From assembly GCA_964017235.1 (NCBI GenBank), contig OZ024935.1, forward strand, positions 37,250,125 through 37,314,124: a stretch of DNA of 64,000 bases, given 5' to 3'. Numbering within the stretch: position 1 is the stretch's first letter; each line of letters starts with the position of its first letter. The notes below the pieces were generated by a model that ran no database searches, was not told the origin of the DNA, and saw only the letters and a program-made list of their open reading frames with translations. Position numbers and translations under genes: made by a program. Below, piece after piece: positions 25,149 through 63,047 of the stretch. The stretch is from Sabellastarte sp. h YS-2021 (taxonomy: Eukaryota > Annelida > Polychaeta > Sabellida > Sabellidae).

Positions 25149-28100
25149 AAGGCTCCCCCCAGAAGGCGAATTACAGGCCTGCTGGGGCCCATATACCACA
25201 CCAGTAATCACTGCTATACTGGATGTAATTCTAAAAGCTATGCAGTCAGATTTAGTAGGTTGCAGACTATTTTCTAGCCGAATTTCAGGATTATAGACCA
25301 ACATTTACTACTCATTTGGGCTGATTTACATGTATTTTACACCATTTTAACAGCAATATTCGGATTAAATAATTTCTGTTCAAACATGTAATGCTCCAAT
25401 TTTGCCTAAAATGTCCTCATTTCTGATCAAAACATGTCTGAAATTAAATAAGTGCTGCAGATTGACCACAATATGATATACCTGAAATTACCCCTCATGA
25501 GGGGGGGCAGACCAGGCCCACACCCCGAAACTGAAATTCCAAATATGGCCCTCGAGTTTGTCAGACAAATGCAATTTAATTCTATGATGAAAACTGAGTT
25601 TCCTGTGAAAATTTGAGCCAGATCCAACCCATTTAAGAGGTGTTTTGAGCTGAATTTAAAGTTTGTGGTACCCTCGCTACATGCACTCCCAGTACATGTA
25701 TTTTGAGCTGGGTATGTATTTCTTAATGAATACACTACTTATTTCTCTTTTAGTGGTGCCCACTCTCGCCAAAAATATGGTTTACAGCCTTACTTCAGCC
25801 TTATTGGTCAAAATATGAGCAAACCTTAAGGCTCCCCCCAGAAGGCGAATTACAGGCCTGCTGGGGCCCATATACCACACCAGTAATCACTGCTATACTG
25901 GATGTAATTCTAAAACCTATGCAGTCAGATTTAGTAGGTTGCAGACTATTTTCTGGCCAAATTTCAGGATTATAGACCAACATTTACTACTCATTTGGGC
26001 TGATTTACATGCATTTTACACCATTTTAACAGCAATATTCGGATTAAATAATTTCTGTTCAGACATGTAATGCTCCAATTTTGCCTAAAATGTCCTCATT
26101 TCTGATCAAAACATGTCTGAAATTAAATAAGTGCTGCAGATTGACCACAATATGATATACCTGAAATTACCCCTCATGAGGGGGGGCAGACCAGGCCCAC
26201 ACCCCGAAACTGAAATTCCAAATATGGCCCTCGAGTTTGTCAGACAAATGCAATTTAATTCTATGATGAAAACTGAGTTTCCGGTGAAAATTTGAGCCAG
26301 ATCCAACCCATTTAAGGGGTGTTTTGAGCTGAATTTAAAGTTTGTGGTACCCTCGCTACATGCACTCCCAGTACATGTATTTTGAGCTGGGTATGTATTT
26401 CTTAATGAATACACTACTTATTTCTCTTTTAGTGGTGCCCACTCTCGCCAAAAATATGGTTTACAGCCTTACTTCAGCCTTATTGGTCAAAATATGAGCA
26501 AACCTTAAGGCTCCCCCCAGAAGGCGAATTACAGGCCTGCTGGGGCCCATATACCACACCAGTAATCACTGCTATACTGGATGTAATTCTAAAACCTATG
26601 CAGTCAGATTTAGTAGGTTGCAGACTATTTTCTGGCCAAATTTCAGGATTATAGACCAACATTTACTACTCATTTGGGCTGATTTACATGTATTTTACAC
26701 CATTTTAACAGCAATATTCGGATTAAATAATTTCTGTTCAGACATGTAATGCTCCAATTTTGCCTAAAATGTCCTCATTTCTGATCAAAACATGTCTGAA
26801 ATTAAATAAGTGCTGCAGATTGACCACAATATGATATACCTGAAATTACCCCTCATGAGGGGGGGGCAGACCAGGCCCACACCCCGAAACTGAAATTCCA
26901 AATATGGCCCTCGAGTTTGTCAGACAAATGCAATTTAATTCTATGATGAAAACTGAGTTTCCTGTGAAAATTTGAGCCAGATCCAACCCATTTAAGGGGT
27001 GTTTTGAGCTGAATTTAAAGTTTGTGGTACCCTCGCTACATGCACTCCCAGTACATGTATTTTGAGCTGGGTATGTATTTCTTAATGAATACACTACTTA
27101 TTTCTCTTTTAGTGGTGCCCACTCTCGCCAAAAATATGGTTTACAGCCTTACTTCTGCCTTATTGGTCAAGATATGAGCAAACCTTAAGGCTCCCCCCAG
27201 AAGGCGAATTACAGGCCTGCTGGGGCCCATATACCACACCAGTAATCACTGCTATACTGGATGTAATTCTAAAAGCTATGCAGTCAGATTTAGTAGGTTG
27301 CAGACTATTTTCTAGCCGAATTTCAGGATTATAGACCAACATTTACTACTCATTTGGGCTGATTTACATGTATTTTACACCATTTTAACAGCAATATTCG
27401 GATTAAATAATTTCTGTTCAGACATGTAATGCTCCAATTTTGCCTAAAATGTCCTCATTTCTGATCAAAACATGTCTGAAATTAAATAAGTGCTGCAGAT
27501 TGACCACAATATGATATACCTGAAATTACCCCTCATGAGGGGGGGCAGACCAGGCCCACACCCCGAAACTGAAATTCCAAATATGGCCCTCGAGTTTGTC
27601 AGACAAATGCAATTTAATTCTATGATGAAAACTGAGTTTCCTGTGAAAATTTGAGCCAGATCCAACCCATTTAAGGGGTGTTTTGAGCTGAATTTAAAGT
27701 TTGTGGTACCCTCGCTACATGCACTCCCAGTACATGTATTTTGAGCTGGGTATGTATTTCTTAATGAATACACTACTTATTTCTCTTTTAGTGGTGCCCA
27801 CTCTCGCCAAAAATATGGTTTACAGCCTTACTTCTGCCTTATTGGTCAAGATATGAGCAAACCTTAAGGCTCCCCCCAGAAGGCGAATTACAGGCCTGCT
27901 GGGGCCCATATACCACACCAGTAATCACTGCTATACTGGATGTAATTCTAAAACCTATGCAGTCAGATTTAGTAGGTTGCAGACTATTTTCTGGCCAAAT
28001 TTCAGGATTATAGACCAACATTTACTACTCATTTGGGCTGATTTACATGTATTTTACACCATTTTAACAGCAATATTCGGATTAAATAATTTCTGTTCAG

Positions 28101-30797
28101 ACATGTAATGCTCCAATTTTGCCTAAAATGTCCTCATTTCTGATCAAAACATGTCTGAAATTAAATAAGTGCTGCAGATTGACCACAATATGATATACCT
28201 GAAATTACCCCTCATGAGGGGGGGCAGACCAGGCCCACACCCCGAAACTGAAATTCCAAATATGGCCCTCGAGTTTGTCAGACAAATGCAATTTAATTCT
28301 ATGATGAAAACTGAGTTTCCTGTGAAAATTTGAGCCAGATCCAACCCATTTAAGGGGTGTTTTGAGCTGAATTTAAAGTTTGTGGTACCCTCGCTACATG
28401 CACTCCCAGTACATGTATTTTGAGCTGGGTATGTATTTCTTAATGAATACACTACTTATTTCTCTTTTAGTGGTGCCCACTCTCGCCAAAATATGGTTTA
28501 CAGCCTTACTTCTGCCTTATTGGTCAAGATATGAGCAAACCTTAAGGCTCCCCCCAGAAGGCGAATTACAGGCCTGCTGGGGCCCATATACCACACCAGT
28601 AATCACTGCTATACTGGATGTAATTCTAAAAGCTATGCAGTCAGATTTAGTAGGTTGCAGACTATTTTCTAGCCGAATTTCAGGATTATAGACCAACATT
28701 TACTACTCATTTGGGCTGATTTACATGTATTTTACACCATTTTAACAGCAATATTCGGATTAAATAATTTCTCTTCAAACATGTAATGCTCCAATTTTGC
28801 CTAAAATGTCCTCATTTCTGATCAAAACATGTCTGAAATTAAATAAGTGCTGCAGATTGACCACAATATGATATACCTGAAATTACCCCTCATGAGGGGG
28901 GGGGCAGACCAGGCCCACACCCCGAAACTGAAATTCCAAATATGGCCCTCGAGTTTGTCAGACAAATGCAATTTAATTCTATGATGAAAACTGAGTTTCC
29001 TGTGAAAATTTGAGCCAGATCCAACCCATTTAAGGGGTGTTTTGAGCTGAATTTAAAGTTTGTGGTACCCTCGCTACATGCACTCCCAGTACATGTATTT
29101 TGAGCTGGGTATGTATTTCTTAATGAATACACTACTTATTTCTCTTTTAGTGGTGCCCACTCTCGCCAAAAATATGGTTTGCAGCCTTACTTCTGCCTTA
29201 TTGGTCAAGATATGAGCAAACCTTAAGGCTCCCCCCAGAAGGCGAATTACAGGCCTGCTGGGGCCCATATACCACACCAGTAATCACTGCTATACTGGAT
29301 GTAATTCTAAAACCTATGCAGTCAGATTTAGTAGGTTGCAGACTATTTTCTGGCCAAATTTCAGGATTATAGACCAACATTTACTACTCATTTGGGCTGA
29401 TTTACATGTATTTTACACCATTTTAACAGCAATATTCGGATTAAATAATTTCTGTTCAGACATGTAATGCTCCAATTTTGCCTAAAATGTCCTCATTTCT
29501 GATCAAAACATGTCTGAAATTAAATAAGTGCTGCAGATTGACCACAATATGATATACCTGAAATTACCCCTCATGAGGGGGGGCAGACCAGGCCCACACC
29601 CCGAAACTGAAATTCCAAATATGGCCCTCGAGTTTGTCAGACAAATGCAATTTAATTCTATGATGAAAACTGAGTTTCCTGTGAAAATTTGAGCCAGATC
29701 CAACCCATTTAAGGGGTGTTTTGAGCTGAATTTAAAGTTTGTGGTACCCTCGCTACATGCACTCCCAGTACATGTATTTTGAGCTGGGTATGTATTTCTT
29801 AATGAATACACTACTTATTTCTCTTTTAGTGGTGCCCACTCTCGCCAAAATATGGTTTACAGCCTTACTTCTGCCTTATTGGTCAAGATATGAGCAAACC
29901 TTAAGGCTCCCCCCAGAAGGCGAATTACAGGCCTGCTGGGGCCCATATACCACACCAGTAATCACTGCTATACTGGATGTAATTCTAAAAGCTATGCAGT
30001 CAGATTTAGTAGGTTGCAGACTATTTTCTAGCCGAATTTCAGGATTATAGACCAACATTTACTACTCATTTGGGCTGATTTACATGTATTTTACACCATT
30101 TTAACAGCAATATTCGGATTAAATAATTTCTGTTCAAACATGTAATGCTCCAATTTTGCCTAAAATGTCCTCATTTCTGATCAAAACATGTCTGAAATTA
30201 AATAAGTGCTGCAGATTGACCACAATATGATATACCTGAAATTACCCCTCATGAGGGGGGGGCAGACCAGGCCCACACCCCGAAACTGAAATTCCAAATA
30301 TGGCCCTCGAGTTTGTCAGACAAATGCAATTTAATTCTATGATGAAAACTGAGTTTCCTGTGAAAATTTGAGCCAGATCCAACCCATTTAAGGGGTGTTT
30401 TGAGCTGAATTTAAAGTTTGTGGTACCCTCGCTACATGCACTCCCAGTACATGTATTTTGAGCTGGGTATGTATTTCTTAATGAATACACTACTTATTTC
30501 TCTTTTAGTGGTGCCCACTCTCGCCAAAAATATGGTTTACAGCCTTACTTCTGCCTTATTGGTCAAGATATGAGCAAACCTTAAGGCTCCCCCCAGAAGG
30601 CGAATTACAGGCCTGCTGGGGCCCATATACCACACCAGTAATCACTGCTATACTGGATGTAATTCTAAAACCTATGCAGTCAGATTTAGTAGGTTGCAGA
30701 CTATTTTCTGGCCAAATTTCAGGATTATAGACCAACATTTACTACTCATTTGGGCTGATTTACATGTATTTTACACCATTTTAACAGCAATATTCGG
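25149..30797. repeat. Zone 2: type-A units with RL subtype, RL/W dimers
   Basis: Unit starts are 25149, 25828, 26507, 27187, 27866, 28544, 29225, 29903 and 30583. Four of them (25149, 27187, 28544, 29903) are the RL subtype, defined by aaagctatg instead of aaacctatg and ctagccgaat instead of ctggccaaat. RL units other than 27187 are preceded by a four-A run (ccaaaatatgg) where other units have five A, which shortens the unit before them by one base. From 27187 the order is strictly RL, W, RL, W, RL, W, where W is the ordinary A start. The variant ttcaaacatg, replacing ttcagacatg, also appears in this zone and later marks A-type middles of zone 3. This is the first stage of higher-order structure before B-type sequence enters in the last unit. 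Confidence 0.9.
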
Positions 30798-31264
30798 GTT
30801 AAATAATTTCGGTTCAGACATGTAATGCTCCAATTGTGCCTAAAATGTCCTCATTTATGATCAAAACATGTCTGAAATTAAATAGGGGCTTCAAATTATT
30901 AACATTATGATATATCTGACATCTTCCTCCCATCAGGGGGAGCCAGACCAGCCCCACACCCCGAAACTGAAATTCCAAAATATGGCCCTCGAGTTTGTCA
31001 GACAAATGCAATTTAATTCTATGGTGGAAACTGAGTTTCCTGTGAAAATTTGAGCCAGATCCAACCCATTTAAGGGGTGTTTTGAGCTGAATTTCCGGTT
31101 TATGGTAGCCTCGCTACATGCACTCCCAATACATGTATTTTGAGCTGGGTATGTATTTCTTAATGAATACACTACTTATTTCTCTCTCAGTGGTGCCCAC
31201 TCTCGCCAAAAATATGGTTTACAGCCTTACTTCTGCCTTATTGGTCAAAATATGAGCAAACCTT
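30583..31264. repeat. First W/B chimera: entry of type-B sequence
   Basis: This unit begins as ordinary A (aaggct, ctggcc, caggatt) and switches to type B at cgggttaa near 30,798. It carries a private variant, tttccggtttatgg, where all other B middles have tttccag. It is followed by a full B/B unit at 31265. It marks the left limit of B-type middles in this window. Confidence 0.88.
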
Positions 31265-31945
31265 AAGGCACCCCCCAGAAGGCGAATTACAGGCCTGCTG
31301 GGGCCCATATACCACACCAGTAATCACTGCTATACTGGATGTAATTCTAAAACCTATGCAGTCAGATTTAGTAGGTTACAGACTATTTCCTGGCCAAATT
31401 TCAGTATTATAGACCAACATTTACTACTCATTTGGGCTGATTTACATGTATTTTACACCATTTTAACAGCAATATTCGGGTTAAATAATTTCGGTTCAGA
31501 CATGTAATGCTCCAATTGTGCCTAAAATGTCCTCATTTATGATCAAAACATGTCTGAAATTAAATAGGGGCTTCAAATTATTAACATTATGATATATCTG
31601 ACATCTTCCTCCCATCAGGGGGAGCCAGACCAGCCCCACACCCCGAAACTGAAATTCCAAAATATGGCCCTCGAGTTTGTCAGAAAAATGCAATTTAATT
31701 CTATGGTGGAAACTGAGTTTCCTGTGAAAATTTGAGCCAGATCCAACCCATTTAAGGGGTGTTTTGAGCTGAATTTCCAGTTTATGGTAGCCTCGCTACA
31801 TGCACTCCCAATACATGTATTTTGAGCTGGGTATGTATTTCTTAATGAATACACTACTTATTTCTCTTTTAGTGGTGCCCACTCTCGCCAAAATATGGTT
31901 TACAGCCTTACTTCTGCCTTATTGGTCAAGATATGAGCAAACCTT

Positions 31946-34900
31946 AAGGCTCCCCCCAGAAGGCGAATTACAGGCCTGCTGGGGCCCATATACCACACCA
32001 GTAATCACTGCTATACTGGATGTAATTCTAAAAGCTATGCAGTCAGATTTAGTAGGTTGCAGACTATTTTCTAGCCGAATTTCAGGATTATAGACCAACA
32101 TTTACTACTCATTTGGGCTGATTTACATGTATTTTACACCATTTTAACAGCAATATTCGGATTAAATAATTTCTGTTCAAACATGTAATGCTCCAATTTT
32201 GCCTAAAATGTCCTCATTTCTGATCAAAACATGTCTGAAATTAAATAAGTGCTGCAGATTGACCACAATATGATATACCTGAAATTACCCCTCATGAGGG
32301 GGGGGGCAGACCAGGCCCACACCCCGAAACTGAAATTCCAAATATGGCCCTCGAGTTTGTCAGACAAATGCAATTTAATTCTATGATGAAAACTGAGTTT
32401 CCTGTGAAAATTTGAGCCAGATCCAACCCATTTAAGGGGTGTTTTGAGCTGAATTTAAAGTTTGTGGTACCCTCGCTACATGCACTCCCAGTACATGTAT
32501 TTTGAGCTGGGTATGTATTTCTTAATGAATACACTACTTATTTCTCTTTTAGTGGTGCCCACTCTCGCCAAAAATATGGTTTACAGCCTTACTTCTGCCT
32601 TATTGGTCAAGATATGAGCAAACCTTAGGGCTCCCCCCAGAAGGCGAATTACAGGCCTGCTGGGGCCCATATACCACACCAGTAATCACTGCTATACTGG
32701 ATGTAATTCTAAAACCTATGCAGTCAGATTTAGTAGGTTGCAGACTATTTTCTGGCCAAATTTCAGGATTATAGACCAACATTTACTACTCATTTGGGCT
32801 GATTTACATGTATTTTACACCATTTTAACAGCAATATTCGGGTTAAATAATTTCGGTTCAGACATGTAATGCTCCAATTGTGCCTAAAATGTCCTCATTT
32901 ATGATCAAAACATGTCTGAAATTAAATAGGGGCTTCAAATTATTAACATTATGATATATCTGACATCTTCCTCCCATCAGGGGGAGCCAGACCAGCCCCA
33001 CACCCCGAAACTGAAATTCCAAAATATGGCCCTCGAGTTTGTCAGAAAAATGCAATTTAATTCTATGGTGGAAACTGAGTTTCCTGTGAAAATTTGAGCC
33101 AGATCCAACCCATTTAAGGGGTGTTTTGAGCTGAATTTCCAGTTTATGGTAGCCTCGCTACATGCACTCCCAATACATGTATTTTGAGCTGGGTATGTAT
33201 TTCTTAATGAATACACTACTTATTTCTCTTTTAGTGGTGCCCACTCTCGCCAAAATATGGTTTACAGCCTTACTTCTGCCTTATTGGTCAAGATATGAGC
33301 AAACCTTAAGGCTCCCCCCAGAAGGCGAATTACAGGCCTGCTGGGGCCCATATACCACACCAGTAATCACTGCTATACTGGATGTAATTCTAAAAGCTAT
33401 GCAGTCAGATTTAGTAGGTTGCAGACTATTTTCTAGCCGAATTTCAGGATTATAGACCAACATTTACTACTCATTTGGGCTGATTTACATGTATTTTACA
33501 CCATTTTAACAGCAATATTCGGATTAAATAATTTCTGTTCAAACATGTAATGCTCCAATTTTGCCTAAAATGTCCTCATTTCTGATCAAAACATGTCTGA
33601 AATTAAATAAGTGCTGCAGATTGACCACAATATGATATACCTGAAATTACCCCTCATGAGGGGGGGGGGCAGACCAGGCCCACACCCCGAAACTGAAATT
33701 CCAAATATGGCCCTCGAGTTTGTCAGACAAATGCAATTTAATTCTATGATGAAAACTGAGTTTCCTGTGAAAATTTGAGCCAGATCCAACCCATTTAAGG
33801 GGTGTTTTGAGCTGAATTTAAAGTTTGTGGTACCCTCGCTACATGCACTCCCAGTACATGTATTTTGAGCTGGGTATGTATTTCTTAATGAATACACTAC
33901 TTATTTCTCTTTTAGTGGTGCCCACTCTCGCCAAAAATATGGTTTACAGCCTTACTTCTGCCTTATTGGTCAAGATATGAGCAAACCTTAGGGCTCCCCC
34001 CAGAAGGCGAATTACAGGCCTGCTGGGGCCCATATACCACACCAGTAATCACTGCTATACTGGATGTAATTCTAAAACCTATGCAGTCAGATTTAGTAGG
34101 TTGCAGACTATTTTCTGGCCAAATTTCAGGATTATAGACCAACATTTACTACTCATTTGGGCTGATTTACATGTATTTTACACCATTTTAACAGCAATAT
34201 TCGGGTTAAATAATTTCGGTTCAGACATGTAATGCTCCAATTGTGCCTAAAATGTCCTCATTTATGATCAAAACATGTCTGAAATTAAATAGGGGCTTCA
34301 AATTATTAACATTATGATATATCTGACATCTTCCTCCCATCAGGGGGAGCCAGACCAGCCCCACACCCCGAAACTGAAATTCCAAAATATGGCCCTCGAG
34401 TTTGTCAGAAAAATGCAATTTAATTCTATGGTGGAAACTGAGTTTCCTGTGAAAATTTGAGCCAGATCCAACCCATTTAAGGGGTGTTTTGAGCTGAATT
34501 TCCAGTTTATGGTAGCCTCGCTACATGCACTCCCAATACATGTATTTTGAGCTGGGTATGTATTTCTTAATGAATACACTACTTATTTCTCTTTTAGTGG
34601 TGCCCACTCTCGCCAAAATATGGTTTACAGCCTTACTTCTGCCTTATTGGTCAAGATATGAGCAAACCTTAAGGCTCCCCCCAGAAGGCGAATTACAGGC
34701 CTGCTGGGGCCCATATACCACACCAGTAATCACTGCTATACTGGATGTAATTCTAAAAGCTATGCAGTCAGATTTAGTAGGTTGCAGACTATTTTCTAGC
34801 CGAATTTCAGGATTATAGACCAACATTTACTACTCATTTGGGCTGATTTACATGTATTTTACACCATTTTAACAGCAATATTCGGATTAAATAATTTCTG

Positions 34901-37900
34901 TTCAAACATGTAATGCTCCAATTTTGCCTAAAATGTCCTCATTTCTGATCAAAACATGTCTGAAATTAAATAAGTGCTGCAGATTGACCACAATATGATA
35001 TACCTGAAATTACCCCTCATGAGGGGGGGGGGGGGGCAGACCAGGCCCACACCCCGAAACTGAAATTCCAAATATGGCCCTCGAGTTTGTCAGACAAATG
35101 CAATTTAATTCTATGATGAAAACTGAGTTTCCTGTGAAAATTTGAGCCAGATCCAACCCATTTAAGGGGTGTTTTGAGCTGAATTTAAAGTTTGTGGTAC
35201 CCTCGCTACATGCACTCCCAGTACATGTATTTTGAGCTGGGTATGTATTTCTTAATGAATACACTACTTATTTCTCTTTTAGTGGTGCCCACTCTCGCCA
35301 AAAATATGGTTTACAGCCTTACTTCTGCCTTATTGGTCAAGATATGAGCAAACCTTAGGGCTCCCCCCAGAAGGCGAATTACAGGCCTGCTGGGGCCCAT
35401 ATACCACACCAGTAATCACTGCTATACTGGATGTAATTCTAAAACCTATGCAGTCAGATTTAGTAGGTTGCAGACTATTTTCTGGCCAAATTTCAGGATT
35501 ATAGACCAACATTTACTACTCATTTGGGCTGATTTACATGTATTTTACACCATTTTAACAGCAATATTCGGGTTAAATAATTTCGGTTCAGACATGTAAT
35601 GCTCCAATTGTGCCTAAAATGTCCTCATTTATGATCAAAACATGTCTGAAATTAAATAGGGGCTTCAAATTATTAACATTATGATATATCTGACATCTTC
35701 CTCCCATCAGGGGGAGCCAGACCAGCCCCACACCCCGAAACTGAAATTCCAAAATATGGCCCTCGAGTTTGTCAGAAAAATGCAATTTAATTCTATGGTG
35801 GAAACTGAGTTTCCTGTGAAAATTTGAGCCAGATCCAACCCATTTAAGGGGTGTTTTGAGCTGAATTTCCAGTTTATGGTAGCCTCGCTACATGCACTCC
35901 CAATACATGTATTTTGAGCTGGGTATGTATTTCTTAATGAATACACTACTTATTTCTCTTTTAGTGGTGCCCACTCTCGCCAAAATATGGTTTACAGCCT
36001 TACTTCTGCCTTATTGGTCAAGATATGAGCAAACCTTAAGGCTCCCCCCAGAAGGCGAATTACAGGCCTGCTGGGGCCCATATACCACACCAGTAATCAC
36101 TGCTATACTGGATGTAATTCTAAAAGCTATGCAGTCAGATTTAGTAGGTTGCAGACTATTTTCTAGCCGAATTTCAGGATTATAGACCAACATTTACTAC
36201 TCATTTGGGCTGATTTACATGTATTTTACACCATTTTAACAGCAATATTCGGATTAAATAATTTCTGTTCAAACATGTAATGCTCCAATTTTGCCTAAAA
36301 TGTCCTCATTTCTGATCAAAACATGTCTGAAATTAAATAAGTGCTGCAGATTGACCACAATATGATATACCTGAAATTACCCCTCATGAGGGGGGGGGCA
36401 GACCAGGCCCACACCCCGAAACTGAAATTCCAAATATGGCCCTCGAGTTTGTCAGACAAATGCAATTTAATTCTATGATGAAAACTGAGTTTCCTGTGAA
36501 AATTTGAGCCAGATCCAACCCATTTAAGGGGTGTTTTGAGCTGAATTTAAAGTTTGTGGTACCCTCGCTACATGCACTCCCAGTACATGTATTTTGAGCT
36601 GGGTATGTATTTCTTAATGAATACACTACTTATTTCTCTTTTAGTGGTGCCCACTCTCGCCAAAAATATGGTTTACAGCCTTACTTCTGCCTTATTGGTC
36701 AAGATATGAGCAAACCTTAGGGCTCCCCCCAGAAGGCGAATTACAGGCCTGCTGGGGCCCATATACCACACCAGTAATCACTGCTATACTGGATGTAATT
36801 CTAAAACCTATGCAGTCAGATTTAGTAGGTTGCAGACTATTTTCTGGCCAAATTTCAGGATTATAGACCAACATTTACTACTCATTTGGGCTGATTTACA
36901 TGTATTTTACACCATTTTAACAGCAATATTCGGGTTAAATAATTTCGGTTCAGACATGTAATGCTCCAATTGTGCCTAAAATGTCCTCATTTATGATCAA
37001 AACATGTCTGAAATTAAATAGGGGCTTCAAATTATTAACATTATGATATATCTGACATCTTCCTCCCATCAGGGGGAGCCAGACCAGCCCCACACCCCGA
37101 AACTGAAATTCCAAAATATGGCCCTCGAGTTTGTCAGAAAAATGCAATTTAATTCTATGGTGGAAACTGAGTTTCCTGTGAAAATTTGAGCCAGATCCAA
37201 CCCATTTAAGGGGTGTTTTGAGCTGAATTTCCAGTTTATGGTAGCCTCGCTACATGCACTCCCAATACATGTATTTTGAGCTGGGTATGTATTTCTTAAT
37301 GAATACACTACTTATTTCTCTTTTAGTGGTGCCCACTCTCGCCAAAATATGGTTTACAGCCTTACTTCTGCCTTATTGGTCAAGATATGAGCAAACCTTA
37401 AGGCTCCCCCCAGAAGGCGAATTACAGGCCTGCTGGGGCCCATATACCACACCAGTAATCACTGCTATACTGGATGTAATTCTAAAAGCTATGCAGTCAG
37501 ATTTAGTAGGTTGCAGACTATTTTCTAGCCGAATTTCAGGATTATAGACCAACATTTACTACTCATTTGGGCTGATTTACATGTATTTTACACCATTTTA
37601 ACAGCAATATTCGGATTAAATAATTTCTGTTCAAACATGTAATGCTCCAATTTTGCCTAAAATGTCCTCATTTCTGATCAAAACATGTCTGAAATTAAAT
37701 AAGTGCTGCAGATTGACCACAATATGATATACCTGAAATTACCCCTCATGAGGGGGGGGGGCAGACCAGGCCCACACCCCGAAACTGAAATTCCAAATAT
37801 GGCCCTCGAGTTTGTCAGACAAATGCAATTTAATTCTATGATGAAAACTGAGTTTCCTGTGAAAATTTGAGCCAGATCCAACCCATTTAAGGGGTGTTTT

Positions 37901-38763
37901 GAGCTGAATTTAAAGTTTGTGGTACCCTCGCTACATGCACTCCCAGTACATGTATTTTGAGCTGGGTATGTATTTCTTAATGAATACACTACTTATTTCT
38001 CTTTTAGTGGTGCCCACTCTCGCCAAAAATATGGTTTACAGCCTTACTTCTGCCTTATTGGTCAAGATATGAGCAAACCTTAGGGCTCCCCCCAGAAGGC
38101 GAATTACAGGCCTGCTGGGGCCCATATACCACACCAGTAATCACTGCTATACTGGATGTAATTCTAAAACCTATGCAGTCAGATTTAGTAGGTTGCAGAC
38201 TATTTTCTGGCCAAATTTCAGGATTATAGACCAACATTTACTACTCATTTGGGCTGATTTACATGTATTTTACACCATTTTAACAGCAATATTCGGGTTA
38301 AATAATTTCGGTTCAGACATGTAATGCTCCAATTGTGCCTAAAATGTCCTCATTTATGATCAAAACATGTCTGAAATTAAATAGGGGCTTCAAATTATTA
38401 ACATTATGATATATCTGACATCTTCCTCCCATCAGGGGGAGCCAGACCAGCCCCACACCCCGAAACTGAAATTCCAAAATATGGCCCTCGAGTTTGTCAG
38501 ACAAATGCAATTTAATTCTATGGTGGAAACTGAGTTTCCTGTGAAAATTTGAGCCAGATCCAACCCATTTAAGGGGTGTTTTGAGCTGAATTTCCAGTTT
38601 ATGGTAGCCTCGCTACATGCACTCCCAATACATGTATTTTGAGCTGGGTATGTATTTCTTAATGAATACACTACTTATTTCTCTCTCAGTGGTGCCCACT
38701 CTCGCCAAAAATATGGTTTACAGCCTTACTTCTGCCTTATTGGTCAAAATATGAGCAAACCTT
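31946..38763. repeat. Run of five RL/A + W/B dimers
   Basis: Ten units alternate without exception: RL start with A middle, then agggct W start with B middle. The period is ~1,362 bp, with small changes from G-tracts of 9, 10, 14, 9 and 10 G. The first four B middles carry gaaaaatgc in place of gacaaatgc; the fifth (38082) does not and ends in ctctctcag. Confidence 0.88.
35023..35036 (+). repeat. Expanded G-tract, 14 G, in superblock copy 1
   Basis: Unit 34671 (RL start, A middle) has 14 G. Its counterpart in superblock copy 2 is unit 47619, which has 12 G. Confidence 0.88.
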
Positions 38764-49900: not shown

Positions 49901-52900
49901 CATGTAATGCTCCAATTGTGCCTAAAATGTCCTCATTTATGATCAAAACATGTCTGAAATTAAATAGGGGCTTCAAATTATTAACATTATGATATATCTG
50001 ACATCTTCCTCCCATCAGGGGGAGCCAGACCAGCCCCACACCCCGAAACTGAAATTCCAAAATATGGCCCTCGAGTTTGTCAGAAAAATGCAATTTAATT
50101 CTATGGTGGAAACTGAGTTTCCTGTGAAAATTTGAGCCAGATCCAACCCATTTAAGGGGTGTTTTGAGCTGAATTTCCAGTTTATGGTAGCCTCGCTACA
50201 TGCACTCCCAATACATGTATTTTGAGCTGGGTATGTATTTCTTAATGAATACACTACTTATTTCTCTTTTAGTGGTGCCCACTCTCGCCAAAATATGGTT
50301 TACAGCCTTACTTCTGCCTTATTGGTCAAGATATGAGCAAACCTTAAGGCTCCCCCCAGAAGGCGAATTACAGGCCTGCTGGGGCCCATATACCACACCA
50401 GTAATCACTGCTATACTGGATGTAATTCTAAAAGCTATGCAGTCAGATTTAGTAGGTTGCAGACTATTTTCTAGCCGAATTTCAGGATTATAGACCAACA
50501 TTTACTACTCATTTGGGCTGATTTACATGTATTTTACACCATTTTAACAGCAATATTCGGATTAAATAATTTCTGTTCAAACATGTAATGCTCCAATTTT
50601 GCCTAAAATGTCCTCATTTCTGATCAAAACATGTCTGAAATTAAATAAGTGCTGCAGATTGACCACAATATGATATACCTGAAATTACCCCTCATGAGGG
50701 GGGGGGGCAGACCAGGCCCACACCCCGAAACTGAAATTCCAAATATGGCCCTCGAGTTTGTCAGACAAATGCAATTTAATTCTATGATGAAAACTGAGTT
50801 TCCTGTGAAAATTTGAGCCAGATCCAACCCATTTAAGGGGTGTTTTGAGCTGAATTTAAAGTTTGTGGTACCCTCGCTACATGCACTCCCAGTACATGTA
50901 TTTTGAGCTGGGTATGTATTTCTTAATGAATACACTACTTATTTCTCTTTTAGTGGTGCCCACTCTCGCCAAAAATATGGTTTACAGCCTTACTTCTGCC
51001 TTATTGGTCAAGATATGAGCAAACCTTAGGGCTCCCCCCAGAAGGCGAATTACAGGCCTGCTGGGGCCCATATACCACACCAGTAATCACTGCTATACTG
51101 GATGTAATTCTAAAACCTATGCAGTCAGATTTAGTAGGTTGCAGACTATTTTCTGGCCAAATTTCAGGATTATAGACCAACATTTACTACTCATTTGGGC
51201 TGATTTACATGTATTTTACACCATTTTAACAGCAATATTCGGGTTAAATAATTTCGGTTCAGACATGTAATGCTCCAATTGTGCCTAAAATGTCCTCATT
51301 TATGATCAAAACATGTCTGAAATTAAATAGGGGCTTCAAATTATTAACATTATGATATATCTGACATCTTCCTCCCATCAGGGGGAGCCAGACCAGCCCC
51401 ACACCCCGAAACTGAAATTCCAAAATATGGCCCTCGAGTTTGTCAGACAAATGCAATTTAATTCTATGGTGGAAACTGAGTTTCCTGTGAAAATTTGAGC
51501 CAGATCCAACCCATTTAAGGGGTGTTTTGAGCTGAATTTCCAGTTTATGGTAGCCTCGCTACATGCACTCCCAATACATGTATTTTGAGCTGGGTATGTA
51601 TTTCTTAATGAATACACTACTTATTTCTCTTTTAGTGGTGCCCACTCTCGCCAAAATATGGTTTACAGCCTTACTTCTGCCTTATTGGTCAAGATATGAG
51701 CAAACCTTAAGGCTCCCCCCAGAAGGCGAATTACAGGCCTGCTGGGGCCCATATACCACACCAGTAATCACTGCTATACTGGATGTAATTCTAAAAGCTA
51801 TGCAGTCAGATTTAGTAGGTTGCAGACTATTTTCTAGCCGAATTTCAGGATTATAGACCAACATTTACTACTCATTTGGGCTGATTTACATGTATTTTAC
51901 ACCATTTTAACAGCAATATTCGGATTAAATAATTTCTGTTCAAACATGTAATGCTCCAATTTTGCCTAAAATGTCCTCATTTCTGATCAAAACATGTCTG
52001 AAATTAAATAAGTGCTGCAGATTGACCACAATATGATATACCTGAAATTACCCCTCATGAGGGGGGGGCAGACCAGGCCCACACCCCGAAACTGAAATTC
52101 CAAATATGGCCCTCGAGTTTGTCAGACAAATGCAATTTAATTCTATGATGAAAACTGAGTTTCCTGTGAAAATTTGAGCCAGATCCAACCCATTTAAGGG
52201 GTGTTTTGAGCTGAATTTAAAGTTTGTGGTACCCTCGCTACATGCACTCCCAGTACATGTATTTTGAGCTGGGTATGTATTTCTTAATGAATACACTACT
52301 TATTTCTCTTTTAGTGGTGCCCACTCTCGCCAAAAATATGGTTTACAGCCTTACTTCTGCCTTATTGGTCAAGATATGAGCAAACCTTAGGGCTCCCCCC
52401 AGAAGGCGAATTACAGGCCTGCTGGGGCCCATATACCACACCAGTAATCACTGCTATACTGGATGTAATTCTAAAACCTATGCAGTCAGATTTAGTAGGT
52501 TGCAGACTATTTTCTGGCCAAATTTCAGGATTATAGACCAACATTTACTACTCATTTGGGCTGATTTACATGTATTTTACACCATTTTAACAGCAATATT
52601 CGGGTTAAATAATTTCGGTTCAGACATGTAATGCTCCAATTGTGCCTAAAATGTCCTCATTTATGATCAAAACATGTCTGAAATTAAATAGGGGCTTCAA
52701 ATTATTAACATTATGATATATCTGACATCTTCCTCCCATCAGGGGGAGCCAGACCAGCCCCACACCCCGAAACTGAAATTCCAAAATATGGCCCTCGAGT
52801 TTGTCAGACAAATGCAATTTAATTCTATGGTGGAAACTGAGTTTCCTGTGAAAATTTGAGCCAGATCCAACCCATTTAAGGGGTGTTTTGAGCTGAATTT

Positions 52901-55110
52901 CCAGTTTATGGTAGCCTCGCTACATGCACTCCCAATACATGTATTTTGAGCTGGGTATGTATTTCTTAATGAATACACTACTTATTTCTCTTTTAGTGGT
53001 GCCCACTCTCGCCAAAATATGGTTTACAGCCTTACTTCTGCCTTATTGGTCAAGATATGAGCAAACCTTAAGGCTCCCCCCAGAAGGCGAATTACAGGCC
53101 TGCTGGGGCCCATATACCACACCAGTAATCACTGCTATACTGGATGTAATTCTAAAAGCTATGCAGTCAGATTTAGTAGGTTGCAGACTATTTTCTAGCC
53201 GAATTTCAGGATTATAGACCAACATTTACTACTCATTTGGGCTGATTTACATGTATTTTACACCATTTTAACAGCAATATTCGGATTAAATAATTTCTGT
53301 TCAAACATGTAATGCTCCAATTTTGCCTAAAATGTCCTCATTTCTGATCAAAACATGTCTGAAATTAAATAAGTGCTGCAGATTGACCACAATATGATAT
53401 ACCTGAAATTACCCCTCATGAGGGGGGGGCAGACCAGGCCCACACCCCGAAACTGAAATTCCAAATATGGCCCTCGAGTTTGTCAGACAAATGCAATTTA
53501 ATTCTATGATGAAAACTGAGTTTCCTGTGAAAATTTGAGCCAGATCCAACCCATTTAAGGGGTGTTTTGAGCTGAATTTAAAGTTTGTGGTACCCTCGCT
53601 ACATGCACTCCCAGTACATGTATTTTGAGCTGGGTATGTATTTCTTAATGAATACACTACTTATTTCTCTTTTAGTGGTGCCCACTCTCGCCAAAAATAT
53701 GGTTTACAGCCTTACTTCTGCCTTATTGGTCAAGATATGAGCAAACCTTAGGGCTCCCCCCAGAAGGCGAATTACAGGCCTGCTGGGGCCCATATACCAC
53801 ACCAGTAATCACTGCTATACTGGATGTAATTCTAAAACCTATGCAGTCAGATTTAGTAGGTTGCAGACTATTTTCTGGCCAAATTTCAGGATTATAGACC
53901 AACATTTACTACTCATTTGGGCTGATTTACATGTATTTTACACCATTTTAACAGCAATATTCGGGTTAAATAATTTCGGTTCAGACATGTAATGCTCCAA
54001 TTGTGCCTAAAATGTCCTCATTTATGATCAAAACATGTCTGAAATTAAATAGGGGCTTCAAATTATTAACATTATGATATATCTGACATCTTCCTCCCAT
54101 CAGGGGGAGCCAGACCAGCCCCACACCCCGAAACTGAAATTCCAAAATATGGCCCTCGAGTTTGTCAGACAAATGCAATTTAATTCTATGGTGGAAACTG
54201 AGTTTCCTGTGAAAATTTGAGCCAGATCCAACCCATTTAAGGGGTGTTTTGAGCTGAATTTCCAGTTTATGGTAGCCTCGCTACATGCACTCCCAATACA
54301 TGTATTTTGAGCTGGGTATGTATTTCTTAATGAATACACTACTTATTTCTCTTTTAGTGGTGCCCACTCTCGCCAAAATATGGTTTACAGCCTTACTTCT
54401 GCCTTATTGGTCAAGATATGAGCAAACCTTAAGGCTCCCCCCAGAAGGCGAATTACAGGCCTGCTGGGGCCCATATACCACACCAGTAATCACTGCTATA
54501 CTGGATGTAATTCTAAAAGCTATGCAGTCAGATTTAGTAGGTTGCAGACTATTTTCTAGCCGAATTTCAGGATTATAGACCAACATTTACTACTCATTTG
54601 GGCTGATTTACATGTATTTTACACCATTTTAACAGCAATATTCGGATTAAATAATTTCTGTTCAAACATGTAATGCTCCAATTTTGCCTAAAATGTCCTC
54701 ATTTCTGATCAAAACATGTCTGAAATTAAATAAGTGCTGCAGATTGACCACAATATGATATACCTGAAATTACCCCTCATGAGGGGGGGGCAGACCAGGC
54801 CCACACCCCGAAACTGAAATTCCAAATATGGCCCTCGAGTTTGTCAGACAAATGCAATTTAATTCTATGATGAAAACTGAGTTTCCTGTGAAAATTTGAG
54901 CCAGATCCAACCCATTTAAGGGGTGTTTTGAGCTGAATTTAAAGTTTGTGGTACCCTCGCTACATGCACTCCCAGTACATGTATTTTGAGCTGGGTATGT
55001 ATTTCTTAATGAATACACTACTTATTTCTCTTTTAGTGGTGCCCACTCTCGCCAAAAATATGGTTTACAGCCTTACTTCTGCCTTATTGGTCAAGATATG
55101 AGCAAACCTT
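46938..55110. repeat. Run of six W/B + RL/A dimers
   Basis: Units from 46938 to 54431 alternate W/B and RL/A. The first three B middles carry gaaaaatgc and the last three gacaaatgc. G-tracts of the A middles are 12, 9, 10, 8, 8 and 8. The last three dimers look like local amplification of one dimer, since their period is a constant 1,361 bp. Confidence 0.88.
47971..47982 (+). repeat. Expanded G-tract, 12 G, in superblock copy 2
   Basis: Unit 47619 occupies the same place in the unit order as 34671 in copy 1. The two-base difference in G-tract length exactly accounts for the offset between the copies changing from 12,948 to 12,946. Confidence 0.88.
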
Positions 55111-58100
55111 AGGGCTCCCCCCAGAAGGCGAATTACAGGCCTGCTGGGGCCCATATACCACACCAGTAATCACTGCTATACTGGATGTAATTCTAAAACC
55201 TATGCAGTCAGATTTAGTAGGTTGCAGACTATTTTCTGGCCAAATTTCAGGATTATAGACCAACATTTACTACTCATTTGGGCTGATTTACATGTATTTT
55301 ACACCATTTTAACAGCAATATTCGGGTTAAATAATTTCGGTTCAGACATGTAATGCTCCAATTGTGCCTAAAATGTCCTCATTTATGATCAAAACATGTC
55401 TGAAATTAAATAGGGGCTTCAAATTATTAACATTATGATATATCTGACATCTTCCTCCCATCAGGGGGAGCCAGACCAGCCCCACACCCCGAAACTGAAA
55501 TTCCAAAATATGGCCCTCGAGTTTGTCAGACAAATGCAATTTAATTCTATGGTGGAAACTGAGTTTCCTGTGAAAATTTGAGCCAGATCCAACCCATTTA
55601 AGGGGTGTTTTGAGCTGAATTTCCAGTTTATGGTAGCCTCGCTACATGCACTCCCAATACATGTATTTTGAGCTGGGTATGTATTTCTTAATGAATACAC
55701 TACTTATTTCTCTCTCAGTGGTGCCCACTCTCGCCAAAAATATGGTTTACAGCCTTACTTCTGCCTTATTGGTCAAAATATGAGCAAACCTTAAGGCACC
55801 CCCCAGAAGGCGAATTACAGGCCTGCTGGGGCCCATATACCACACCAGTAATCACTGCTATACTGGATGTAATTCTAAAACCTATGCAGTCAGATTTAGT
55901 AGGTTACAGACTATTTCCTGGCCAAATTTCAGTATTATAGACCAACATTTACTACTCATTTGGGCTGATTTACATGTATTTTACACCATTTTAACAGCAA
56001 TATTCGGATTAAATAATTTCTGTTCAAACATGTAATGCTCCAATTTTGCCTAAAATGTCCTCATTTCTGATCAAAACATGTCTGAAATTAAATAAGTGCT
56101 GCAGATTGACCACAATATGATATACCTGAAATTACCCCTCATGAGGGGGGGGCAGACCAGGCCCACACCCCGAAACTGAAATTCCAAATATGGCCCTCGA
56201 GTTTGTCAGACAAATGCAATTTAATTCTATGATGAAAACTGAGTTTCCTGTGAAAATTTGAGCCAGATCCAACCCATTTAAGGGGTGTTTTGAGCTGAAT
56301 TTAAAGTTTGTGGTACCCTCGCTACATGCACTCCCAGTACATGTATTTTGAGCTGGGTATGTATTTCTTAATGAATACACTACTTATTTCTCTTTTAGTG
56401 GTGCCCACTCTCGCCAAAAATATGGTTTACAGCCTTACTTCTGCCTTATTGGTCAAGATATGAGCAAACCTTAAGGCTCCCCCCAGAAGGCGAATTACAG
56501 GCCTGCTGGGGCCCATATACCACACCAGTAATCACTGCTATACTGGATGTAATTCTAAAACCTATGCAGTCAGATTTAGTAGGTTGCAGACTATTTTCTG
56601 GCCAAATTTCAGGATTATAGACCAACATTTACTACTCATTTGGGCTGATTTACATGTATTTTACACCATTTTAACAGCAATATTCGGGTTAAATAATTTC
56701 GGTTCAGACATGTAATGCTCCAATTGTGCCTAAAATGTCCTCATTTATGATCAAAACATGTCTGAAATTAAATAGGGGCTTCAAATTATTAACATTATGA
56801 TATATCTGACATCTTCCTCCCATCAGGGGGAGCCAGACCAGCCCCACACCCCGAAACTGAAATTCCAAAATATGGCCCTCGAGTTTGTCAGACAAATGCA
56901 ATTTAATTCTATGGTGGAAACTGAGTTTCCTGTGAAAATTTGAGCCAGATCCAACCCATTTAAGGGGTGTTTTGAGCTGAATTTCCAGTTTATGGTAGCC
57001 TCGCTACATGCACTCCCAATACATGTATTTTGAGCTGGGTATGTATTTCTTAATGAATACACTACTTATTTCTCTTTTAGTGGTGCCCACTCTCGCCAAA
57101 ATATGGTTTACAGCCTTACTTCTGCCTTATTGGTCAAGATATGAGCAAACCTTAAGGCTCCCCCCAGAAGGCGAATTACAGGCCTGCTGGGGCCCATATA
57201 CCACACCAGTAATCACTGCTATACTGGATGTAATTCTAAAAGCTATGCAGTCAGATTTAGTAGGTTGCAGACTATTTTCTAGCCGAATTTCAGGATTATA
57301 GACCAACATTTACTACTCATTTGGGCTGATTTACATGTATTTTACACCATTTTAACAGCAATATTCGGATTAAATAATTTCTGTTCAAACATGTAATGCT
57401 CCAATTTTGCCTAAAATGTCCTCATTTCTGATCAAAACATGTCTGAAATTAAATAAGTGCTGCAGATTGACCACAATATGATATACCTGAAATTACCCCT
57501 CATGAGGGGGGGGGCAGACCAGGCCCACACCCCGAAACTGAAATTCCAAATATGGCCCTCGAGTTTGTCAGACAAATGCAATTTAATTCTATGATGAAAA
57601 CTGAGTTTCCTGTGAAAATTTGAGCCAGATCCAACCCATTTAAGGGGTGTTTTGAGCTGAATTTAAAGTTTGTGGTACCCTCGCTACATGCACTCCCAGT
57701 ACATGTATTTTGAGCTGGGTATGTATTTCTTAATGAATACACTACTTATTTCTCTTTTAGTGGTGCCCACTCTCGCCAAAAATATGGTTTACAGCCTTAC
57801 TTCTGCCTTATTGGTCAAGATATGAGCAAACCTTAGGGCTCCCCCCAGAAGGCGAATTACAGGCCTGCTGGGGCCCATATACCACACCAGTAATCACTGC
57901 TATACTGGATGTAATTCTAAAACCTATGCAGTCAGATTTAGTAGGTTGCAGACTATTTTCTGGCCAAATTTCAGGATTATAGACCAACATTTACTACTCA
58001 TTTGGGCTGATTTACATGTATTTTACACCATTTTAACAGCAATATTCGGGTTAAATAATTTCGGTTCAGACATGTAATGCTCCAATTGTGCCTAAAATGT

Positions 58101-61100
58101 CCTCATTTATGATCAAAACATGTCTGAAATTAAATAGGGGCTTCAAATTATTAACATTATGATATATCTGACATCTTCCTCCCATCAGGGGGAGCCAGAC
58201 CAGCCCCACACCCCGAAACTGAAATTCCAAAATATGGCCCTCGAGTTTGTCAGACAAATGCAATTTAATTCTATGGTGGAAACTGAGTTTCCTGTGAAAA
58301 TTTGAGCCAGATCCAACCCATTTAAGGGGTGTTTTGAGCTGAATTTCCAGTTTATGGTAGCCTCGCTACATGCACTCCCAATACATGTATTTTGAGCTGG
58401 GTATGTATTTCTTAATGAATACACTACTTATTTCTCTCTCAGTGGTGCCCACTCTCGCCAAAAATATGGTTTACAGCCTTACTTCTGCCTTATTGGTCAA
58501 AATATGAGCAAACCTTAAGGCACCCCCCAGAAGGCGAATTACAGGCCTGCTGGGGCCCATATACCACACCAGTAATCACTGCTATACTGGATGTAATTCT
58601 AAAACCTATGCAGTCAGATTTAGTAGGTTACAGACTATTTCCTGGCCAAATTTCAGTATTATAGACCAACATTTACTACTCATTTGGGCTGATTTACATG
58701 TATTTTACACCATTTTAACAGCAATATTCGGATTAAATAATTTCTGTTCAAACATGTAATGCTCCAATTTTGCCTAAAATGTCCTCATTTCTGATCAAAA
58801 CATGTCTGAAATTAAATAAGTGCTGCAGATTGACCACAATATGATATACCTGAAATTACCCCTCATGAGGGGGGGGGCAGACCAGGCCCACACCCCGAAA
58901 CTGAAATTCCAAATATGGCCCTCGAGTTTGTCAGACAAATGCAATTTAATTCTATGATGAAAACTGAGTTTCCTGTGAAAATTTGAGCCAGATCCAACCC
59001 ATTTAAGGGGTGTTTTGAGCTGAATTTAAAGTTTGTGGTACCCTCGCTACATGCACTCCCAGTACATGTATTTTGAGCTGGGTATGTATTTCTTAATGAA
59101 TACACTACTTATTTCTCTTTTAGTGGTGCCCACTCTCGCCAAAAATATGGTTTACAGCCTTACTTCTGCCTTATTGGTCAAGATATGAGCAAACCTTAAG
59201 GCTCCCCCCAGAAGGCGAATTACAGGCCTGCTGGGGCCCATATACCACACCAGTAATCACTGCTATACTGGATGTAATTCTAAAACCTATGCAGTCAGAT
59301 TTAGTAGGTTGCAGACTATTTTCTAGCCGAATTTCAGGATTATAGACCAACATTTACTACTCATTTGGGCTGATTTACATGTATTTTACACCATTTTAAC
59401 AGCAATATTCGGATTAAATAATTTCTGTTCAAACATGTAATGCTCCAATTTTGCCTAAAATGTCCTCATTTCTGATCAAAACATGTCTGAAATTAAATAA
59501 GTGCTGCAGATTGACCACAATATGATATACCTGAAATTACCCCTCATGAGGGGGGGGGCAGACCAGGCCCACACCCCGAAACTGAAATTCCAAATATGGC
59601 CCTCGAGTTTGTCAGACAAATGCAATTTAATTCTATGATGAAAACTGAGTTTCCTGTGAAAATTTGAGCCAGATCCAACCCATTTAAGGGGTGTTTTGAG
59701 CTGAATTTAAAGTTTGTGGTACCCTCGCTACATGCACTCCCAGTACATGTATTTTGAGCTGGGTATGTATTTCTTAATGAATACACTACTTATTTCTCTT
59801 TTAGTGGTGCCCACTCTCGCCAAAAATATGGTTTACAGCCTTACTTCTGCCTTATTGGTCAAGATATGAGCAAACCTTAGGGCTCCCCCCAGAAGGCGAA
59901 TTACAGGCCTGCTGGGGCCCATATACCACACCAGTAATCACTGCTATACTGGATGTAATTCTAAAACCTATGCAGTCAGATTTAGTAGGTTGCAGACTAT
60001 TTTCTGGCCAAATTTCAGGATTATAGACCAACATTTACTACTCATTTGGGCTGATTTACATGTATTTTACACCATTTTAACAGCAATATTCGGGTTAAAT
60101 AATTTCGGTTCAGACATGTAATGCTCCAATTGTGCCTAAAATGTCCTCATTTATGATCAAAACATGTCTGAAATTAAATAGGGGCTTCAAATTATTAACA
60201 TTATGATATATCTGACATCTTCCTCCCATCAGGGGGAGCCAGACCAGCCCCACACCCCGAAACTGAAATTCCAAAATATGGCCCTCGAGTTTGTCAGACA
60301 AATGCAATTTAATTCTATGGTGGAAACTGAGTTTCCTGTGAAAATTTGAGCCAGATCCAACCCATTTAAGGGGTGTTTTGAGCTGAATTTCCAGTTTATG
60401 GTAGCCTCGCTACATGCACTCCCAATACATGTATTTTGAGCTGGGTATGTATTTCTTAATGAATACACTACTTATTTCTCTCTCAGTGGTGCCCACTCTC
60501 GCCAAAAATATGGTTTACAGCCTTACTTCTGCCTTATTGGTCAAAATATGAGCAAACCTTAAGGCACCCCCCAGAAGGCGAATTACAGGCCTGCTGGGGC
60601 CCATATACCACACCAGTAATCACTGCTATACTGGATGTAATTCTAAAACCTATGCAGTCAGATTTAGTAGGTTACAGACTATTTCCTGGCCAAATTTCAG
60701 TATTATAGACCAACATTTACTACTCATTTGGGCTGATTTACATGTATTTTACACCATTTTAACAGCAATATTCGGATTAAATAATTTCTGTTCAAACATG
60801 TAATGCTCCAATTTTGCCTAAAATGTCCTCATTTCTGATCAAAACATGTCTGAAATTAAATAAGTGCTGCAGATTGACCACAATATGATATACCTGAAAT
60901 TACCCCTCATGAGGGGGGGGCAGACCAGGCCCACACCCCGAAACTGAAATTCCAAATATGGCCCTCGAGTTTGTCAGACAAATGCAATTTAATTCTATGA
61001 TGAAAACTGAGTTTCCTGTGAAAATTTGAGCCAGATCCAACCCATTTAAGGGGTGTTTTGAGCTGAATTTAAAGTTTGTGGTACCCTCGCTACATGCACT

Positions 61101-62906
61101 CCCAGTACATGTATTTTGAGCTGGGTATGTATTTCTTAATGAATACACTACTTATTTCTCTTTTAGTGGTGCCCACTCTCGCCAAAAATATGGTTTACAG
61201 CCTTACTTCTGCCTTATTGGTCAAGATATGAGCAAACCTTAAGGCTCCCCCCAGAAGGCGAATTACAGGCCTGCTGGGGCCCATATACCACACCAGTAAT
61301 CACTGCTATACTGGATGTAATTCTAAAACCTATGCAGTCAGATTTAGTAGGTTGCAGACTATTTTCTGGCCAAATTTCAGGATTATAGACCAACATTTAC
61401 TACTCATTTGGGCTGATTTACATGTATTTTACACCATTTTAACAGCAATATTCGGGTTAAATAATTTCGGTTCAGACATGTAATGCTCCAATTGTGCCTA
61501 AAATGTCCTCATTTATGATCAAAACATGTCTGAAATTAAATAGGGGCTTCAAATTATTAACATTATGATATATCTGACATCTTCCTCCCATCAGGGGGAG
61601 CCAGACCAGCCCCACACCCCGAAACTGAAATTCCAAAATATGGCCCTCGAGTTTGTCAGACAAATGCAATTTAATTCTATGGTGGAAACTGAGTTTCCTG
61701 TGAAAATTTGAGCCAGATCCAACCCATTTAAGGGGTGTTTTGAGCTGAATTTCCAGTTTATGGTAGCCTCGCTACATGCACTCCCAATACATGTATTTTG
61801 AGCTGGGTATGTATTTCTTAATGAATACACTACTTATTTCTCTCTCAGTGGTGCCCACTCTCGCCAAAAATATGGTTTACAGCCTTACTTCTGCCTTATT
61901 GGTCAAAATATGAGCAAACCTTAAGGCACCCCCCAGAAGGCGAATTACAGGCCTGCTGGGGCCCATATACCACACCAGTAATCACTGCTATACTGGATGT
62001 AATTCTAAAACCTATGCAGTCAGATTTAGTAGGTTACAGACTATTTCCTGGCCAAATTTCAGTATTATAGACCAACATTTACTACTCATTTGGGCTGATT
62101 TACATGTATTTTACACCATTTTAACAGCAATATTCGGGTTAAATAATTTCGGTTCAGACATGTAATGCTCCAATTGTGCCTAAAATGTCCTCATTTATGA
62201 TCAAAACATGTCTGAAATTAAATAGGGGCTTCAAATTATTAACATTATGATATATCTGACATCTTCCTCCCATCAGGGGGAGCCAGACCAGCCCCACACC
62301 CCGAAACTGAAATTCCAAAATATGGCCCTCGAGTTTGTCAGACAAATGCAATTTAATTCTATGGTGGAAACTGAGTTTCCTGTGAAAATTTGAGCCAGAT
62401 CCAACCCATTTAAGGGGTGTTTTGAGCTGAATTTCCAGTTTATGGTAGCCTCGCTACATGCACTCCCAATACATGTATTTTGAGCTGGGTATGTATTTCT
62501 TAATGAATACACTACTTATTTCTCTCTCAGTGGTGCCCACTCTCGCCAAAAATATGGTTTACAGCCTTACTTCTGCCTTATTGGTCAAAATATGAGCAAA
62601 CCTTAAGGCACCCCCCAGAAGGCGAATTACAGGCCTGCTGGGGCCCATATACCACACCAGTAATCACTGCTATACTGGATGTAATTCTAAAACCTATGCA
62701 GTCAGATTTAGTAGGTTACAGACTATTTCCTGGCCAAATTTCAGTATTATAGACCAACATTTACTACTCATTTGGGCTGATTTACATGTATTTTACACCA
62801 TTTTAACAGCAATATTCGGGTTAAATAATTTCGGTTCAGACATGTAATGCTCCAATTGTGCCTAAAATGTCCTCATTTATGATCAAAACATGTCTGAAAT
62901 TAAATA

Positions 62907-62974
62907 GGGGCTTCAAATTATTAACATTATGATATATCTGACATCTTCCTCCCATCAGGGGGAGCCAGACCAGC
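62907..62974. repeat. A/B divergent block (type-B version)
   Basis: In this block types A and B disagree at about twenty positions, plus small indels, so identity falls to roughly 70%. The flanking several hundred bases are about 97% identical. The corresponding A block in the reference A unit is about 9,140-9,205. Every middle in the window is clearly one version or the other; I saw no intermediate block. Confidence 0.85.
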
Positions 62975-63047
62975 CCCACACCCCGAAACTGAAATTCCAA
63001 AATATGGCCCTCGAGTTTGTCAGACAAATGCAATTTAATTCTATGGT

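Follow-up and report, generated by a model that had tools for sequence, protein, structure and literature searches.

Satellite borders and hybrid monomers in other genomes

The start of new satellite higher-order repeats (HORs) is usually inferred from finished arrays. The closest described systems include the mixed SF1/SF5 and SF2/SF5 alpha-satellite domains of hg38, in which two lineages alternate and are partly amplified as HORs. In the passages of that work on mixed domains, recombination across an array border is one of three possible origins, with HOR amplification as a possible sequel (PMC4496801). Human centromeres also contain hybrid monomers, which are joins of parts of monomers and which, by hypothesis, drive the formation of new ones (CentromereArchitect, PMC8336445; hybrids also PMC9549924). 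In addition, new HORs of single origin have been amplified there in a saltatory manner and are intermixed with older ones (PMC11062924). In the mouse, junction arrays between the minor and the major satellite provide long sequences that span two satellites (PMC10880262).

The locus described here lies within a window of 64,000 bp, which is the whole stretch of DNA that was analysed. It is similar to the hg38 mixed domains in the alternation of two satellite lineages that are partly HOR-amplified. However, the amplified mixes of human chromosomes 3 and 20 were judged 'apparent' and not products of a border in the passages concerned (PMC4496801), whereas here parents that fit exactly adjoin the mosaic. 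Hybrid monomers are described as relatively infrequent in human arrays, the cenX cases being explained by deletions within one HOR array (PMC8336445), whereas here 28 of the 45 monomers of a 30.7-kb stretch are hybrid and join two subfamilies. The saltatory human HORs are reported on a megabase scale and in many haplotypes (PMC11062924), in contrast to one 64-kb window in one sequence. Finally, the mouse junctions join two different satellites, and amplified chimaeric dimers at the junction are not described in the passages considered, 12 out of 52 matching places (PMC10880262). The process is known in outline and the value of the present locus is that of a clear case. Because one sequence displays candidate parents, three kinds of junction, the products of amplification and a later duplication of a block, the window can serve as a test case for models of unequal exchange, conversion and amplification.

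The array and its monomers

The whole window is a head-to-tail satellite with a monomer of ~680 bp. Cutting at an exact 24-mer that occurs 94 times gives 94 complete monomers (m01–m94) of 678–688 bp, the number expected from an earlier sequence-only reading of the same DNA. Typical monomers are 679–682 bp long and the hybrid monomers 680–682 bp. The window ends with a full 682-bp monomer, m94, and the initial 23 bases of another; m94 has the same sequence as m92 and m93. The alignment contains 93 monomers in 689 columns, 63 of which have a minor count of at least 3, and m94 was compared separately. A run of G (columns 344–356) was masked in haplotype, lag and clustering comparisons. The mean occurrence of 21-mers is 52–75 in each 2-kb bin, and in no bin does the share of single-occurrence 21-mers exceed about 4%.

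The monomers are non-coding and arranged head-to-tail in a long array, as in satellite DNA, most likely that of a eukaryote and, judging by the CpG depletion described below, perhaps of a vertebrate. The window contains no ORF of 120 aa, no tRNA was found in it, and it has no Rfam match at gathering score. Five of the 16 listed ORFs were tried against Pfam with no match above the cut-off, one weak match reaching 13.2 bits against a cut-off of 27. TRF found nothing in the window because its longest period is 500. A conserved 23-mer had no match in the viral contigs or genome contigs searched, and one monomer compared with phages by distant blastn gave no match. The satellite was not found among the matches listed in open-licence literature for six window strings of 18–20 bases and for term searches; no claim is made that it is absent from print.

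Two core types

For clustering, each monomer was divided into a left part (columns 1–206), a core (207–545) and a right part (546–689). The cores form two well separated groups, A with 68 and B with 25 of the 93 monomers (silhouette 0.97). The left parts split best into three (62 A, 21 W and 10 B; silhouette 0.88), and in the right part 11 B-type monomers are set apart (silhouette 0.64). With two clusters the three partitions disagree, the adjusted Rand index being 0.05 for left and core, 0.07 for left and right and 0.41 for core and right, and left block and core are combined in all four possible ways (62, 21, 6 and 4 of 93). Recombination is therefore needed unless linked sites repeatedly changed together. 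Since the segments cluster differently, the monomers are chimaeric. The separate A and B groups had been anticipated by the sequence-only reading, which proposed separate clustering of start, middle and end parts.

The A consensus and B (m92) differ in 41 columns outside the G-run. Of these, 35 lie in columns 207–545, with 23 concentrated in columns 294–368, and only 6 lie outside the core. Because the flanks are nearly identical, A and B are, judged from their sequences, versions of one satellite. The earlier description of two homogenised families overstates their independence, as the flanks hardly differ and the parents that fit the hybrids (see below) are not bulk A and B.

Within 36 A monomers, variation is found at 28 sites, 11 of which are in columns 207–545 and 2 in columns 294–368. 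This differs from the placing of the A/B differences (Fisher p 9.5e-5 and 2.8e-5, respectively). As A-internal variation is not concentrated in the core, the divergence of A and B is accounted for neither by a mutation hot spot, which is unsupported as its source in the core, nor by any evident constraint on the flanks. The pattern would fit best with an earlier exchange of flanks around an older core.

The idea that the B core was copied from elsewhere in the monomer is unsupported, since 163 of 300 shuffles score at least as high. The ancestral-core test gave 12 against 5 when based on A (p 0.14), with an alignment chosen on A and hence a lean to A, and 2 against 5 when based on B (p 0.45), in the opposite direction.

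B might also be a derived variant born inside the array, in which case the mosaic would be a stage of replacement and not the meeting of two arrays. Nearly identical flanks, with their 6 differences out of 41, speak for such an origin in that they make A and B versions of one satellite. However, 35 columns differ in the core, and 23 of these fall in a segment that holds just 2 of the 28 A-internal sites. In addition, beyond m10 and m12, the only monomers of m01–m45 with B matches at the 31 core-diagnostic columns (1 and 2 matches, respectively), no intermediate core is observed among the 93 monomers. An origin of B inside the array is regarded as unlikely. It is compatible with unequal exchange, and the likelihood given to it does not exclude that given to the preferred explanation, a border of two variants.

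Organisation of the window

The window consists of the following parts:

1..24479: A array, m01–m36, after 9 bases from the end of an earlier monomer; monomer length mostly 679 bp
24480..30591: edge zone, m37–m45; A mixed with R1 and W0, ending in two R1–W0 dimers (m42–m45)
30592..61249: mosaic plateau, m46–m90; W–D dimers and X–Y–W trimers; mean B fraction 0.46, without trend
61932..64000: B monomers m92–m94 and 23 bases of the next; mutually identical

The class letters are our own. R1 is marked by 624- and 665G, and W0 by 80G, 119A and 123G; together W and R1 represent a third lineage that takes part beside A and B. D and Z carry 419A, which D' and Z' do not. The order of classes is:

m37–m45: R1 W0 A A W0 R1 W0 R1 W0
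m46–m68: X Z W D W D W D W D W X Z' W X Y D' W X Y w X Y
m69–m90: w, then D W D W D W D' W D' W D' W X Y D' W X Y w X Y
m91–m94: X B B B

The sequence-only reading had described pure A, then A with dimers of variants (here R1/W0), then a graded mosaic and finally pure B. This order is confirmed, the gradient is not. Across m46–m90 the B fraction is flat (Spearman rho -0.07, p 0.67, 45 monomers), and across m46–m93 rho is 0.12 (p 0.44). The value of 0.72 over all 93 monomers arises because of a step at m46, and the mosaic is thus a step followed by a plateau. The two ends are also less pure than was proposed. At the left no B core is present in m01–m45, but the 36 monomers of the A array represent 19 haplotypes outside the G-run with mean differences of 3.04, and m06 and m34 carry one base typical of the B right part (column 686). 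At the right, 'pure B' amounts to three monomers and 23 nt, which is not proof of a B array.

Small local duplications are observed within the A array (1–24479), where m01–m02 equal m04–m05, m09 equals m11, and m15–m16 equal m22–m23. Monomer m12 (7489–8167), an A monomer far from the border, carries its two B-diagnostic bases in neighbouring columns (440 and 443); these may be either a short conversion tract or chance.

Junctions and hybrid monomers

In m46–m91 there are 41 points at which the sequence switches between A and B. At marker resolution they are of three kinds (J1, 21; J2, 14; J3, 6):

30724..30797: J1, first copy, A/R1 left part to B; columns 133–206; 21 copies in m46–m91
31812..31867: J2, first copy, B core to R1 right part; columns 546–601; 14 copies
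40948..41040: J3, first copy, B left part to W0 core; columns 133–225; 6 copies
61382..61455: J1, last copy (m91); A to B switch, then B only to the end of the window

J1 and J2 fall where A and B agree, and the J3 interval begins with such a stretch. The exact switch point is invisible inside all three intervals.

Three classes contain monomers that are exactly a prefix of one monomer joined to a suffix of another with the length kept. X (m60) equals R1 (m44) followed by B, Y (m61) equals B followed by W0 (m45), and Z' (m58) equals B followed by R1 (m44), in each case with 0 differences including the G-run. The parents m44 and m45 are the last two monomers before the mosaic. When 46 candidate parents are compared (m01–m45 and m92), Y is obtained only from B and m45, and Z' from three pairs, B with m37, m42 or m44. 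For X, 30 pairs fit and these include bulk A, so that X alone does not name R1 as its left parent. By sequence, the basic hybrid classes are recombinants of three parent types that the window still contains, R1 (like m44), W0 (like m45) and B (like m92).

No pair among the 46 parents yields D', the best leaving 3 mismatches, and so both J1 and J2, that is two switches, are needed. D' (m62) is R1 with a B core. D' (m76) equals X (m57) joined to Z' (m58) exactly, and similarly D (m49) equals X (m46) joined to Z (m47) exactly. Pure recombination does not account for every class. Column 682 and the G-run distinguish W (m48) from W0 (m45), and column 513 distinguishes X (m46) from R1 joined to B; w differs from W at column 80, and 419A is confined to some D and Z.

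Amplification as dimers and trimers

The sequence-only reading had proposed that chimaeric monomers were amplified as dimers and trimers, which agrees with the exact fit of X, Y and Z' in the copies tested and with the near-zero diversity of the W–D and X–Y–W units. Outside the G-run a single haplotype is found in each of W (14 copies), w (3), D with 419A (7), D' (5) and Y (6), and two haplotypes are found among the 9 copies of X. The G-run is the only varying part within W (8–14 G) and Y (8–9 G). From m47 onwards, with the G-run masked, monomers at lag 2 have a mean difference of 10.8 and 38% are identical, compared with 37.4 and 2% at lag 1. Copies of the multi-monomer units are thus more alike than the monomers of which they consist, as in HORs. 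Dimers and trimers alternate in short runs and there is no single long HOR array within the window. The near-zero diversity of the hybrid classes, set against the 19 haplotypes of the A array, suggests that the hybrids multiplied more recently than the last homogenisation of that array, if mutation rates are equal. This near-zero diversity, the third lineage, the nearly identical flanks of A and B and the block duplication described next are additional to the earlier reading.

Block duplication

Part of the mosaic is present twice:

38905..45934: identical stretch, copy 1; 7,030 bp, within m58 to within m68; offset 14,986 bp
53891..60920: identical stretch, copy 2; 7,030 bp, exact
33999..38090: m51–m56, part of the duplicated block, copy 1; 99.95% identical to 46947–51036, with one gap and no mismatch
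46947..51036: m70–m75, copy 2 of m51–m56; offset 12,948 bp
46265..46946: m69; exactly w (m66) then W (m50), as expected at the junction of a block duplication

Outside the G-run m59–m68 equal m81–m90. The two offsets correspond to 19 monomers (12,948 bp) and 22 monomers (14,986 bp), and the growth from 19 to 22 would be accounted for by X Z' (2 monomers) in copy 1 against D' W D' W D' (5 monomers) in copy 2. G-run lengths match in 7 of 9 paired monomers, which is reached by 19 of 20,000 within-class shuffles. The class order alone is weak evidence, as 64 of 2,000 transition-preserving shuffles match the block duplication by class order; the exact identity and the G-runs carry the case. A block of ~13 kb is thus duplicated, although the duplication could be an artefact.

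More generally, reads from at least two similar arrays or haplotypes may have been joined in the assembly, or the block duplication may be false. Very high identity over long stretches, as in the exact 7,030 bp, and the scarcity of single-occurrence 21-mers, which leaves few anchors for reads, are both conditions in which such errors could arise. However, the switches lie inside monomers at three fixed places, and a wrong join would hardly repeat 41 times; an artefact behind the hybrid monomers is therefore unlikely. The block copies also differ in some G-run lengths and in the insert of 2 or 5 monomers. Overall, an assembly artefact is considered very improbable as the explanation of the locus.

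Origin of the mosaic

The window is probably the border of two variants of one ~680-bp satellite, produced by one A/B fusion and subsequently by unequal exchange and amplification. In this scheme, one crossover (J1) would have joined a B array to an A-type array that ended in R1–W0 dimers. Copies of this fused edge would then have exchanged unequally, which would have cut B back to W0 (J3) or to R1 (J2) and given X–Y and X–Z. Loss of one monomer from X–Z would produce D, which may alternatively have formed by direct conversion of the core, and rapid local amplification would lead to the dimers and trimers. A 12.9-kb unequal exchange between W-type monomers, with m69 as its product, would have duplicated the 19-monomer block, after which X Z' in one copy would have come to stand against D' W D' W D' in the other. 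No sequence-specific function need be assumed.

Alternatively, tracts of B core may have been copied independently and many times into an R1/W0 dimer array by recurrent gene conversion, which is one presumed mechanism of satellite homogenisation in a passage of PMC9549924. The structure of D', in which only the core of R1 is replaced by B, and the shared register of the R1–W0 and D–W dimers are both consistent with conversion. However, the 41 switch points are of only three kinds and the copies of the hybrid classes are nearly all identical. Recurrent conversion is regarded as improbable, while the formation of D by a single founding conversion is possible.

The two mechanisms were also compared by toy simulations that started from an A/B fusion and allowed exchange only in stretches identical in A and B, runs with 30–55 switch points being kept. 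Under unequal exchange 489 of 4,800 runs qualify, of which about 25 have three kinds of junction or fewer and about 219 have a rho of 0.1 or less. Under conversion 733 of 4,800 runs qualify, with three kinds or fewer in none and a rho of 0.1 or less in about 6. With free breakpoints, four kinds or fewer are seen in 0–20% of the qualifying unequal-exchange runs per setting and in none of the qualifying conversion runs. Uniform placement, chosen size limits and the 30–55 junction filter make the simulations crude, and they are given little weight. As far as such models go, unequal exchange is preferred over recurrent conversion. Three kinds of junction are few even under unequal exchange, and an amplification burst or favoured breakpoints would therefore be needed as well.

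More speculatively, the border may be a birthplace of new HORs, with the heterologous fusion making the edge monomers, types like m44 and m45, the seed of a burst, and with a mosaic that is younger than the A array and may replace its parents. This wider proposal is doubtful. If it is true, a single sequence contains an HOR birth from its parents through its founding junctions to its products.

Internal features of the monomer

Alpha satellite has a monomer of ~171 bp and carries the CENP-B box in a subset of monomers. The present satellite differs in its typical monomer length. A repeat of quarter length is absent, since 195 of 300 shuffles reach the A score and 197 of 300 the B score, and the best match to the CENP-B box has 2 mismatches.

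The G-run contains 6–16 G in A-core monomers, for example in m06, m28 and m34 (3405, 18352 and 22435) and in W monomers, and 5 G in all 25 aligned B-core monomers. The run may act as a fast clock, or its variation may come from sequencing errors.

The two halves of an A monomer are alike, with 68% identity over 185 aligned positions in m03 (1368–2046). This score is reached by 0 of 300 dinucleotide shuffles, and by 1 of 200 in a cruder test. In B (m93, 62614–63295) the resemblance of the halves is not significant, as 43 of 300 shuffles score at least as high. A ~340-bp unit, dimerised long ago, may be the source of the monomer.

In the same two monomers CpG is depleted, with observed/expected ratios of 0.23 (m03) and 0.27 (m93), and CHG is found without depletion (1.59 and 1.47, respectively). 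This combination would fit CpG-methylated DNA.
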